Origin: Methylococcus mesophilus
GTDB taxonomy: Bacteria > Pseudomonadota > Gammaproteobacteria > Methylococcales > Methylococcaceae
DNA length: 64,000 nucleotides
Direction: 5' to 3'
NCBI RefSeq assembly: GCF_026247885.1
Contig: NZ_CP110921.1
Location: 2,165,001 to 2,229,000 of the forward strand
Shown in pieces: positions 57,981-63,818 of this stretch. The stretch's first letter is position 1. Each line of letters opens with the position of its first letter. The notes under the pieces are model-generated. The model searched no databases and was not told where the DNA came from. It saw only the letters and a list, made by a program, of their open reading frames with translations. The translations under genes were made by a program, and so were the position numbers.

Positions 57981-58970
57981 TTAGGGCGCGGCCCGGTTGG
58001 CCCGCGCCTCGTCTTCGAACTTCTGCCGGTATTTCAGGATTTCGTCGACGATCTGTTCCGCGGTCTTTTCGATGTCTTTGCCGGTCGCATTTTTCTCCAT
58101 CACGAACTTGGCGGCGGCGACATAGGGGTTCATGGTCACGACCGCGCCCGGCATCTTGCTCGGGTCCTTCACCGTGCCGAACACGATGAAGGGCTGGTGC
58201 GGGTCCTTGCCGGCGAGATCGCTCACGCCGACCTGCACGTCCATGGAGGTCGCCCCGGCTCCGAAACCGATTACCGCGCGCTTGAGCCGGCTGCCTTCGT
58301 CGACCTCGGTGAACATGCCCTGCACCAGCCAGCCGTCGCGCGGCAAGGCTCCGGCCGTGGAGGCGATGCGCTGCGCCGGAACACCCTTGTCCGACAGGCT
58401 CTTCACCAGCGCGGCCGCCATGGCGTCGACGATTTCACGGGCCTTGTCGCCGGGACTCCCGGCGCCGAAGGGACTCCTCAAGCGCTGGCCGAGTCCGCCG
58501 AGCAGGCCCTGGCGCTGGGATTGAGATTGACCCGGCAGCAATCCCCTGACGCCGGGATCGCTCTGGATGTTTTCGGCATCCAGTGCGAAATCGGCGACAT
58601 ACACCGTCCTCGGCCCTTCGCCGGGCTTGACCGCGCCGAGTTGTTCGTTGCGGACCTCCACGCTGCCAAGGAGCTTGCGGGTACGATCCGCTCCGCAACC
58701 CCCGAGCGCTACACTTAAGCAAACCAGAAGTAAGAGTCTGTCTTGAAAAAGAAGATGGGGGATCGTAGGGCGGATAAGCGGCAGCGCATCCGCCAAATTC
58801 GGCTCCGCCGCTCTTCGAGTCAGCTTCGCTGCCCTTCGAGTCGGCGTTGCGGTGGATGCGCTACGCTTATCCACCCTACCTGAGCGGAGACTTTTCCTGA
58901 TTTCAACTGATTGACTTCGCTTGAATAGACTTTTCAAGACAGGTTCCAAAAGGGAAATACGGCGCGCCAT
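57981..58970 (-). CDS. DUF4410-type lipoprotein with repeat inserted in its signal peptide
   Basis: The mature part (from the lipobox SVALGGC) matches DUF4410-like lipoproteins: TVYVADFALDAENIQSDPGV, DGWLVQGMFTEVDEGSRLKR, GFGAGATSMDVQVGVSDLAG, MNPYVAAAKFVMEKNATGKD. The ATG at 58970 has a strong AAGGAGAG site and starts MARRISLLE. The next 69 codons come from a 205-bp inverted-repeat element. The hydrophobic LLLLVCLSVALGGC follows. The frame is open through the insert, giving 329 residues. Without insert and 2-bp duplication the leader would read MARRISLLELLLLVCLSVAL. Whether the product is still exported is unclear. Confidence 0.75.
   Translation of the reverse strand: MARRISLLEPVLKSLFKRSQSVEIRKSLRSGRVDKRSASTATPTRRAAKLTRRAAEPNLADALPLIRPTIPHLLFQDRLLLLVCLSVALGGCGADRTRKLLGSVEVRNEQLGAVKPGEGPRTVYVADFALDAENIQSDPGVRGLLPGQSQSQRQGLLGGLGQRLRSPFGAGSPGDKAREIVDAMAAALVKSLSDKGVPAQRIASTAGALPRDGWLVQGMFTEVDEGSRLKRAVIGFGAGATSMDVQVGVSDLAGKDPHQPFIVFGTVKDPSKMPGAVVTMNPYVAAAKFVMEKNATGKDIEKTAEQIVDEILKYRQKFEDEARANRAAP
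58738..58942. mobile_element. MITE-like element (205 bp, 12-bp terminal inverted repeats)
   Basis: Perfect 12-bp terminal repeats CTGTCTTGAAAA/TTTTCAAGACAG bound the element, and the flanks share a 2-bp AC on both sides (58943-58944 and 58736-58737, minus strand), a possible target duplication. Inside, GTAGGGCGGATAAGC and GCTTATCCACCCTAC form a larger palindrome with GCGCATCC arms. There is no coding capacity for a transposase. It is inserted near the 5' end of the lipoprotein gene. Confidence 0.75.
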
Positions 58971-59068
58971 TTACTCTCCTTGAGATTTCATAAAGCTGAG
59001 GAATTCAGACGGTTTCCGGCCACCGCCAGATGACGGCGCCTACCGGACCCGATCCGTCTCACCCTCGG

Positions 59069-59434
59069 TCAGTCGCACTCCCATAGATCCAGCGCTACCC
59101 GGTCGTGCCGCTGCGGATCGTATTTGACCGGAACCGTGCGGCCCGGCTGGGCCAGGGGAACTTCCAGGTGGGAGATGAGGGCCTTGGTTTTCGCCTCGAA
59201 CGGCGGACCCTGGTCCGGCTGCACTTCCAGCACGAATTCGGCCACGGGGTTCTGATTGATGGTGATGCCGGTATCCGCGAGGCCGACGATCCGGGCAGTT
59301 GCGGGCCTGCCGGTGCGCAGAATCTCGCAGGATTCGTTGCGTCCGCTGAACCGGTCGACGATCGTCGTGCAACCTGCAGCCGACGCGAACAGGGATAGCA
59401 GCAACCCTCGCCGAAGCAAGGCCGGTATTCTCAT
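59069..59434 (-). CDS. Small putative lipoprotein
   Basis: 121 residues. The N-terminus RRGLLLSLFASAAGCTT provides a lipobox-like AAGC. The rest (CEILRTGRPATARIVGLADT, GITINQNPVAEFVLEVQPDQ, RTVPVKYDPQRHDRVALDLW) is beta-rich and resembles the DUF3592-like extracellular domain. Starts with ATG at 59434. No partner gene; function unknown. The 98 bp between it and the previous gene are non-coding. Confidence 0.7.
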   Translation of the reverse strand: MRIPALLRRGLLLSLFASAAGCTTIVDRFSGRNESCEILRTGRPATARIVGLADTGITINQNPVAEFVLEVQPDQGPPFEAKTKALISHLEVPLAQPGRTVPVKYDPQRHDRVALDLWECD

Positions 59435-59545
59435 CGCGTTCGAACTTGTAGGAATCGGTAACGAGGTCGGGCCTGATCCGGATCAAAGAACCAATGGTGC
59501 GGACCAGGCCGGGGTATGCGGGAGGGTGCTTTCTCGACGGCCAGC

Positions 59546-60863: not shown

Positions 60864-62261
60864 TTACCCCCTCAGGTGCTGCAGGACTTCGTCCAGCATC
60901 TTCTTGGCATCGCCGAACAGCATCCGGTTGTTTTCCTTGTAGAACAGCGGATTGTCGACGCCGGCATAACCGGATGCCATGGAACGCTTCATGACGATGG
61001 ACGTGCCCGCCTTCCAGACCTCCAGCACCGGCATGCCGGCGATGGGGCTGTTGGGGTCTTCCTGGGCGCCCGGATTGACAATGTCGTTGGCGCCGATGAC
61101 CATCGCCACGTCGGTTTCCGGGAAGTCCTCGTTGATTTCGTCCATTTCCAGCACGATGTCATAAGGCACCCTGGCTTCGGCCAGCAGCACGTTCATGTGC
61201 CCCGGCATGCGGCCGGCTACCGGATGGATAGCGAAACGCACGTTGACGCCCTTGTCCCGCAGGTGCTTGGTGATTTCATACACCGTGTGCTGAGCCTGCG
61301 CCACCGCCATGCCGTAGCCCGGCACCAGGACCACATTGCGGGCGCTGCGCAGCAGCTCCGCGGTTTCCTCGGCGCCGATCGGCTGCACCTCGCCCTCCGG
61401 CTTTGCCCCAGTTGCTGCAGTCCCCCCCTCGGTGCCGAAACCGCCGGCAATCACCGCAAAAAAATGACGGTTCATGGCCCGGCACATGATGTAGGACAGG
61501 ATTGCGCCGGAAGAGCCCACCAGCGCGCCGGTGACGATCAGGAGATCGTTCGACAGCATGAAGCCCGTGGCCGACGCCGCCCAACCCGAATAGCTGTTGA
61601 GCATGGACACGACCACAGGCATGTCGGCGCCACCGATCGCCATGACCATGTGGATGCCGAACAGCAGGGCTATGGCGGTCATGATGCCCAGCGGCACGAT
61701 GCCGGCCGCGGTCGAATCGGCGTCGAGAAACTGCTTGCCGACCACGAGGACGGCGATCAATAGCCCCAGGTTGAGCCAGTGACGCCCCGGTATCAGCATC
61801 GGCTTGCCGCTGATCTTGCCTGACAGCTTGCCGAAGGCGATGACCGAACCCGAAAAGGTCACGGCGCCGATCAGTATCCCGACGTAGATTTCCGATTCGT
61901 GGATAGTCTTCTCGACGCCGGCGAAGTGTGCGCTCGGATCGAAGTAGTTGGCGAAACCGACCAGGGCCGCCGCAAGGCCGACCAGGCTGTGCATGAGCGC
62001 AACCAGTTCCGGCATCTCGGTCATCTTGACCTTGATCGCGGCATATACGCCGACACTGCCGCCGACCAGCATGGCGATCAGGATCGGCACGTAGCTGGTG
62101 ACCTTGGGGCCCAGCAGCGTCGCCAGGATGGCGATGGCCATGCCTGCGATGCCGTAGAAATTCCCTCGCCTTGCCGTTTCCGGATGGCTCAGCCCGCCCA
62201 GGCTGAGGATGAACAGGATGGTCGCGCCGATGTACGCGACCGTAACCAAACCTTCAGACAT
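60864..62261 (-). CDS. pntB: NAD(P) transhydrogenase subunit beta
   Basis: 465 residues. The first ~260 form the proton channel with at least eight membrane helices ([60 protein letters not shown]). The C-terminal NADP-binding domain has [40 protein letters not shown] and [20 protein letters not shown]. Uses the proton gradient to make NADPH from NADH. It lies 18 nt after pntA. Confidence 0.96.
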
Positions 62262-62279
62262 GATCTTCTCCCGTCCTTG

Positions 62280-63818
62280 TTATCTTCTGAACATGCGCAG
62301 CATGCGCTGGGTCACCCAGAATCCACCCGCCATGTTGACCGCCGTCAGGGCGACCGCTAGCCCTGCCAGCGTCAGGATCAGCGTGCCGGGCGAGGAAATC
62401 TGGATCAGTGCGCCGATCGCGATGATGCTGGAGATGGCGTTGGTAACGCTCATCAAGGGTGTGTGCAGCGCGGGCGTCACGTTCCAGATCACCATATATC
62501 CGACGAAGCAGGCGAGCACGAACACGGTGAAATGTTCCATGAAGTCGGCCGGGGCATTGGCCCCGATCAAGTAGAAGATCAAGGCGCCGACACCGATGCC
62601 GAGGCCGGTTCGGACCCAGGCCGGCAGCAGCGGCTTCTTTTCGGTTACGACCGGCGGCGCGGCCGTGGCCATCTGCGGAGCCGCCGCGCTGATCTTGGGC
62701 GGCGGTGGCGGCCAGGTGATGGTGCCGTCCTTGATCACCGTGGCACCGCGGATCACTTCGTCGTCCATGTCCACCACGGCATTGCCATCCTTCTGCGGGC
62801 ACAGCTCTTCGAGCAAACGCAGGAGGTTGGTGGCATAGAGCGTACTGGACTGCCGAGCCAGGCGGCTGGGCAGGTCGGTATAGCCGATGATGGTGACCTC
62901 GTGGCGCACCACGACCTCGCCGGGAACGGTCAGCTCGCAGTTGCCGCCCTGTTCGGCGGCCATGTCGACGATCACGCTGCCCGGCTTCATGGACTTGACC
63001 ATGCCGACGGTGATCAGCTTGGGGGCAGGCTTGCCAGGAATCAGGGCAGTGGTGACGATGACGTCGACGTCCATGGCCTGACGGGCGATCATCTCGGCCT
63101 GGGCCTTCTGATAGCCCTCGCTCATGATCTTGGCATAGCCGCCGACGCCGGTCCCCTCCTCCTGGTATTCCACTTCGACGAACTCGGCGCCCATGGACTT
63201 GACCTGATCCTTCACTTCCGGCCGGGTGTCGTTGGCGCGGACGATGGCGCCCAACCCGCCGGCGGCGCCGATTGCGGCAAGACCCGCCACGCCGGCGCCG
63301 ATGACGAAGACCTTAGCCGGCGGCACCTTGCCGGCCGCCGTCACCTGGCCGCAAAAAAAGCGGCCGAAATGATGGGCCGCTTCGATCACCGCACGGTAGC
63401 CGGCGATGTTCGCCATGGAGCTCAGGGCATCGAGTTTCTGCGCCCTGGAAATCCGCGGCACGCTGTCCATGGCCAGCACGGTTCCGCCGGTGGCGGCCAG
63501 TTGGTCCATGAGTTCGGCGTTCTGGGCCGGCCAGATGAAACTGACCAGACACCCGCCCTTCCGCATCAGTTCGACTTCGGCGGACGAAGGCGCGCGCACC
63601 TTGAGCACCATGTCGGAGTTCGCCCACAGCTCGACGGCGGTCGGTACGATCTCGATGCCCGCCTCGCGGAACACGTCGTCGGAAAAATTCGCATCGTCCC
63701 CGGCGCCGGTTTCGACGGCGACCTCGAATCCAAGCTTCTTGATCTTCTCGGCCACTTCCGGTGTGGTCGCTACCCGGCGCTCTCCGGGAAATATTTCCTT
63801 CGGTATTCCTATTCGCAT
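62280..63818 (-). CDS. pntA: NAD(P) transhydrogenase subunit alpha (single-chain)
   Basis: 512 residues, MRIGIPKEIFPGERRVATTP. The alanine-dehydrogenase-like NAD domain has VFVIGAGVAGLAAIGAAGGL, GAIVRANDTRPEVKDQVKSM and SVIVDMAAEQGGNCELTVPG. Four C-terminal membrane helices (GLGIGVGALIFYLIGANAPA, FTVFVLACFVGYMVIWNVTP, PLMSVTNAISSIIAIGALIQ, LILTLAGLAVALTAVNMAGG) make it the enterobacterial-type undivided alpha subunit. It is first in pntAB; its promoter should lie in 63819-63935. Confidence 0.96.
   Translation of the reverse strand: MRIGIPKEIFPGERRVATTPEVAEKIKKLGFEVAVETGAGDDANFSDDVFREAGIEIVPTAVELWANSDMVLKVRAPSSAEVELMRKGGCLVSFIWPAQNAELMDQLAATGGTVLAMDSVPRISRAQKLDALSSMANIAGYRAVIEAAHHFGRFFCGQVTAAGKVPPAKVFVIGAGVAGLAAIGAAGGLGAIVRANDTRPEVKDQVKSMGAEFVEVEYQEEGTGVGGYAKIMSEGYQKAQAEMIARQAMDVDVIVTTALIPGKPAPKLITVGMVKSMKPGSVIVDMAAEQGGNCELTVPGEVVVRHEVTIIGYTDLPSRLARQSSTLYATNLLRLLEELCPQKDGNAVVDMDDEVIRGATVIKDGTITWPPPPPKISAAAPQMATAAPPVVTEKKPLLPAWVRTGLGIGVGALIFYLIGANAPADFMEHFTVFVLACFVGYMVIWNVTPALHTPLMSVTNAISSIIAIGALIQISSPGTLILTLAGLAVALTAVNMAGGFWVTQRMLRMFRR

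Follow-up and report, generated by a model that had tools for sequence, protein, structure and literature searches.

An IS5-type MITE inserted in frame into the signal peptide of a Methylococcus lipoprotein gene and present at the same codon in two species

A MITE has inserted in frame into the leader of a DUF4410 lipoprotein gene of Methylococcus mesophilus, and the event is real, being established by empty sites in sister species. Our main reading, to which we assign a probability of roughly three in four, is that a MITE mobilised by an IS5-family transposase inserted into a TTA codon, the frame was kept, and the resulting allele, found in two species, is probably translated and tolerated, not used. 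The gene lies in the window, by which we mean the whole 64,000-nucleotide stretch of DNA analysed, and the relevant features are given below in window positions.

57981-58970, minus strand: DUF4410 lipoprotein gene, 329 codons, ATG at 58968-58970 (PF14366, E 1.9e-32)
58695-58697, minus strand: codon of Cys92 in the lipobox LGGC, from the sequence of the DUF4410 gene
58974-58981, minus strand: ribosome-binding site AAGGAGAG of the ancestral start, read directly from the sequence
58734-58946, minus strand: IS5-derived MITE, 213 bp, from the copy alignment; the gene reads its frame +0 (EPVLKSLFKRS...LFQDRL)
58931-58946, minus strand: terminal repeat GAACCTGTCTTGAAAA (gene strand), an exact match to one end of an IS5-family IS in genome G002
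58734-58749, plus strand: terminal repeat GAGTCTGTCTTGAAAA, from aligned copies
58731-58733: one copy of the target triplet, TAA (gene strand TTA), from the sequence
58947-58949: the other copy of the target triplet, CAA (gene strand TTG), with one base different, from the sequence
58799-58840: two 21-bp units, the second 81% like the first, each equal to 7 codons and differing in number among copies
58765-58879: internal hairpin with arms GTAGGGCGGATAAGCG / CGCTTATCCACCCTAC, from fold prediction and repeats
58794-58796, minus strand: candidate internal start TTG (Leu59) within the element, GGAG lying 6 nt upstream, from sequence only

Read 5' to 3', the gene consists of AAGGAGAG, its first eight codons (MARRISLL, of which the eighth is the target copy), the palindromic element and LLLVCLSVALGGC. 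The product has the hydrophobic core followed by a lipobox Cys that marks a lipoprotein and SPase II substrate (LLLLVCLSVALGGC), and, as an earlier note on this DNA had it, the frame is open from the ATG at 58970 through the element and into the lipobox, giving 329 aa. The same note described perfect 12-bp inverted repeats, which are indeed present (58738-58749 and 58931-58942) and bound a strong predicted fold (z = -6.5, with 0 of 200 shuffles as good). It took these arms as the limits of a 205-bp element lying ten codons into the gene and, with a 2-bp AC duplication, adding 207 bp or 69 codons. However, the ends common to aligned copies run four bases further on each side (GAGTCTGTCTTGAAAA...TTTTCAAGACAGGTTC), hence the element occupies 58734-58946 and is 213 bp long with imperfect terminal repeats of 16 bp. 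It follows eight codons, not ten. The duplication is a 3-bp TNA, and the net insertion is 216 bp, or 72 codons, made up of the element and one 3-bp target copy. In the window the target triplets are TAA/CAA on the plus strand and TTA/TTG on the gene strand, both encoding Leu.

The gene was present in all six Methylococcus genomes compared (G000, the window genome, to G005). An insertion at the same codon and in frame was found in G000 and G002, whereas four congeners (G001, G003, G004 and G005) had no element at the leader site, as the idea of a MITE in frame inside a lipoprotein signal peptide predicts. In G002 the duplication is perfect, TTA/TTA, and the element is shorter than the window copy by one 21-bp (7-codon) unit. 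Removing the element and one triplet from the window leader gives MARRISLLLLVCLSVALGGC, in which Met to the shared VCL spans 13 residues, the same length as in each of the four species with an empty site: MVRRISLMALVCL (G004), MKRRTSLLFLVCL (G005), MKRRISLSLLVCL (G003) and MTGRNPFLFLVCL (G001). Including the Cys, the leaders are 20 residues long in G004 and G005 and 23 in G003 and G001, where three additional residues follow VCL; the empty-site leaders have a short basic n-region and a Cys near the N-terminus. Relatives thus have a matching empty site, as the earlier note expected, although the 207-bp deletion it proposed would leave 16 residues from Met to VCL, and together with the aligned copies this length rules out the AC duplication and the 207-bp sum. 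The ribosome site AAGGAGAG upstream of the leader is identical in G002, G003 and G001, reads GAGGAGAG in G004 and is weaker in G005. Scans of 58650-59500 for promoters and terminators returned no site of either kind.

A second MITE insertion is common to G000 and G002, this one intergenic, between genes which we take to be hemerythrin-like and amidotransferase-like, and G005 has a clean empty site there with a single TTA. G004 has other DNA at this position; by eye, a different short sequence with a palindrome replaces the MITE (L157, about 1687-1793).

Further copies with the same 12-bp ends, anticipated in the earlier note, are present in the window genome (4.34 Mb, one contig), where the 12-mer of the arms occurs eight times, never read backwards, and three other full-length copies match at 97, 93 and 81%. 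We read 24 loci from G000, G002, G003 and G005, yielding 16 two-ended copies (188-547 bp) at 12 distinct sites; these are not independent, as one site is counted in three species and two sites in two. Left out of the count were L116, where the MITE is split by an IS110-type transposase gene, L119 (a single end), L128 (no end), L122, L123 and L124 (taken as IS copies) and L126 and L127 (solitary ends). An identical TNA (TAA, TTA, TCA or TGA) stood on both sides of 13 of the 16 copies, and in the remaining three, the window copy included, the flanking triplets were one base off. The family therefore has the terminal inverted repeats common to several copies, target duplication and empty sites that define a MITE. 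Of 41 genomes searched, nine matched the element; only in Methylococcus were the copies complete or almost so, the matches elsewhere being short pieces, and there was no match among 72,556 plasmid records. By ORF reading, which for most sites was done without homology tests, 10 of the other 11 sites are intergenic or coincide with a stop codon, and one (G002 3505k) is ambiguous.

Several copies merit separate description. One insertion, at the stop codon of a glycosyltransferase-like gene, is present in three species (L125 of G005, 685-1149; L111 of G002, 598-873; L002 of G000, 1499-1711) and measures 465, 276 and 213 bp respectively; the number of 21-bp units is very different, amounting to a minisatellite inside the MITE. 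In L116 (G002, 707-2177) the IS110-type gene (PF01548, PF02371) that splits the MITE may have inserted into the palindrome. The solitary ends of L127 (G000, 1663-1678) and L126 (G003, 1485-1500) have the same flank, CCGTCTTTTG, and no second end was found nearby. The triplet before GAACC is TTG in two G000 copies (L003, 1495-1497; window, 58947-58949) and TTA in their G002 orthologues, by chance or by recurrent change. In L109 (G002, 598-831) the MITE ends 8 bp before the start of an ABC ATPase gene, presumably SufC-like. Read in the opposite direction, an ATG inside the MITE (MRCRLSALRSSIFFFKTDS...) opens a frame that continues into the following gene at three sites (L121 of G002, 802-1380; L120 of G002, 271-657; L002 of G000, 529-1554), which could provide an N-terminal extension or a new start, or be a mere annotation trap.

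The probable source of mobility is an IS5-family element. G002 carries two IS copies of 843 and 847 bp whose first 17 bases are identical to the MITE end, and which encode an IS5-family transposase in two frames (DUF4096, DDE_Tnp_1; NF033580). At their other end there are two mismatches to the MITE end and the flanking triplets do not match, hence these copies may be rearranged. Transposase relatives in G000 were only partial or distant (5 matches, the best 82% over 65 residues). Duplication of a 3-bp TNA target suits IS5 subgroups. The MITE resembles these elements in the end shared with the NF033580 IS, but differs in having no transposase of its own, and its GTAG hairpin and 21-bp units are absent from the IS, where the interior finds matches of no more than 10 bases. 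Judging by its ends, the MITE would be a non-autonomous element mobilised in trans by an IS5-family transposase; it entered a TTA (Leu) codon in the lipoprotein leader and duplicated that triplet.

The open frame needs no selection to explain it. Frame +0 was stop-free in 10 of the 16 copies and any other frame in none; among 4000 shuffles frame +0 was open in 8.5% and some frame in 40%, hence an open frame alone is unremarkable. The frame was kept because the element is a multiple of three, the duplication is 3 bp and the sole stop-free phase and orientation of the family matched the gene; changes in unit number, being of 21 bp, also preserve it. Together, the openness of frame +0, the shuffle rates and the 21-bp steps account for the fusion without selection. 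In the three forward frames of 11 copies outside the gene, pN/pS was 0.65, 0.62 and 0.68, with no sign of coding constraint, in a count that omits L110, L121 and L004 (other gaps) and both leader copies; the alignments behind these values and the copy tree contain length-variable repeats with gaps placed by MAFFT.

The fate of the fused protein depends on where translation begins. The protein is probably still made. A start at the ATG would put a basic extension of 72 residues ahead of an intact hydrophobic core and lipobox; the alternative is a start at the internal TTG. In the occupied leader the Cys is residue 92 from the ATG, far past usual lipoprotein leader lengths, and residue 34 from the TTG. 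In a predicted fold of 306 nt the hairpin is strong (z -5.3); the ribosome site and ATG are paired in this fold, which could hinder the old start, and two bases of the TTG fall in an internal loop. It is conceivable, if rather doubtful, that the MITE supplies a new start at this TTG, behind GGAG, giving MADALPLIRPTIPHLLFQDRLLLLVCLSVALGG-C: the GGAG 6 nt upstream is the same in G000 and G002, Cys34 brings the leader nearer the usual range, and the partial exposure of the TTG in the fold agrees with it. However, the ancestral ATG and AAGGAGAG are intact in both occupied species, the TTG itself sits inside the strong predicted hairpin, and the first eight residues of the shorter leader contain no basic one.

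About equally doubtful is that the insertion disables expression or export, leaving an early pseudogene whose decay is still to come. The remote Cys92, the paired ribosome site and ATG and the basic character of the insert (16 K/R against 6 D/E among 71 inserted residues) are consistent with this, and the insertion looks young, so that decay would not show yet. Against it, the frame is open in two species, and the predicted fold of the first 106 nt around the start is unremarkable, 144 of 200 shuffles folding as well. The branch of G000 in the gene tree is also short, 0.020 compared with 0.060 for the empty G004. Moreover, dN/dS of the mature gene is 0.13 between the occupied species, with a range of 0.13-0.33 over ten pairs of five species, and such low values suggest the gene has been functional over most of this time. 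The earlier note had offered an extended leader, silenced export or domestication; the mature gene is intact, with the proviso that the insertion may be too young for decay, and the last of these possibilities did not find support. On the sequence evidence, the cell most likely tolerates the insertion without making use of it.

Domestication would mean that the extended n-region or the mRNA hairpin usefully alters export or translation, so that selection keeps and spreads the allele, a reading we consider improbable. Its best argument is conservation. The elements of G000 and G002 show 2 differences in 192 aligned sites (plus one 21-bp unit), compared with 57 in 717 for the mature coding sequence (Fisher p = 1e-4) and 60 in 459 for the region upstream (-500 to -31). 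Of all 192-column segments in the 6.6-kb alignment of the two genomes the element is the most conserved, segments with three or fewer differences starting only at 58700-58740, and a difference of 7 codons is the only one in length, with the frame kept in both species. However, two non-coding orthologous MITEs of the same species pair are also conserved, at 6/213 (flanks 37/1000) and 6/212 (flanks 93/1179), and the leader copy was not significantly lower than these two (2/192 compared with 12/425, Fisher p = 0.25). One of its two substitutions is synonymous and the other is not, and four of the six species do without the element. The absence of coding constraint in the family (pN/pS 0.62-0.68) and a divergence like that of non-coding orthologues therefore leave domestication unsupported, and selection on the fused peptide found no support in either comparison. 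More improbable still is the fuller version, in which the MITE is a working, length-variable signal-peptide extension, adjustable in 7-codon steps through its 21-bp unit, and the fused leader was spread by selection, altering export or translation of the DUF4410 lipoprotein.

How a tolerated insertion came to be in two species is a question of descent. The two leader copies are mutual nearest relatives among the 16 copies (support 0.92). In the tree of the mature coding sequence G000 groups with the empty G004 (0.986) and G002 with the empty G003 (0.912); with the occupied species thus separated, one insertion passed on vertically would require recombination. Directly behind the element G000 and G002 both have GTTTGCTTAAGTGT, which the four empty species lack there, and before it G000 equals G004 (CGT ATT) and G002 equals G003 (CGG ATT). 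On the basis of the common GTTTGCTTAAGTGT and the split resemblance before the element, we prefer lateral exchange of a short tract carrying the inserted leader. The informative sites are few, and in many parts of the block G002 is the genome closest to G000, so a history of common descent in which the gene body recombined does almost as well. From the sequences, the presence of the inserted allele in two species is most likely due to exchange of the short tract with the leader, or else to inheritance from a common ancestor and recombination on either side. Two independent insertions into the same codon would suit the separation of the occupied species in the mature-gene tree, but are very unlikely given that the copies are mutual nearest relatives and are both followed by GTTTGCTTAAGTGT. 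Over window positions 61001-63700 the nearest relative of G000 alternates between G003, G001 and G002, suggesting recombination between Methylococcus species.

Searches of the open-access literature on MITEs (in-frame, signal peptide, coding sequence, fusion) and on Rickettsia palindromic elements did not show this family or case among the matches listed. No paper was found for DUF4410, for MITE with signal sequence and lipoprotein, or for Methylococcus with IS5 family, and the sole match for MITE with Methylococcus concerned Methylobacterium. Among the sister species one and the same signal peptide occurs naturally in empty, occupied and length-variant form, so it can be tested directly how well lipoprotein export copes with a long added n-region and what becomes of genes fused in frame to a MITE.

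The internal hairpin begins with GTAG, like the GTAG-tagged REP palindromes described in PMC3733652, but unlike them sits inside an element bounded by terminal repeats; the main text of that paper does not mention Methylococcus. The closer parallel is with the Rickettsia palindromic elements, as presented in PMC10969869 (citing Ogata et al. 2000, 2002), which are likewise short palindromes lying in frame in coding genes with an open frame of their own. The MITE shares the in-frame insertion in a coding gene, at one site in two species. It differs from what PMC10969869 presents in its IS5-type ends, in having one of 12 sites inside a gene rather than recurrent gene insertion, and in giving no evidence of a conserved family peptide across those sites by pN/pS. 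The review PMC10969869 describes it as not unusual for a MITE ORF to be fused in frame with a genomic ORF, the Rickettsia elements being the extreme; the fusion in the window belongs to this known kind, the in-frame MITE fusion.
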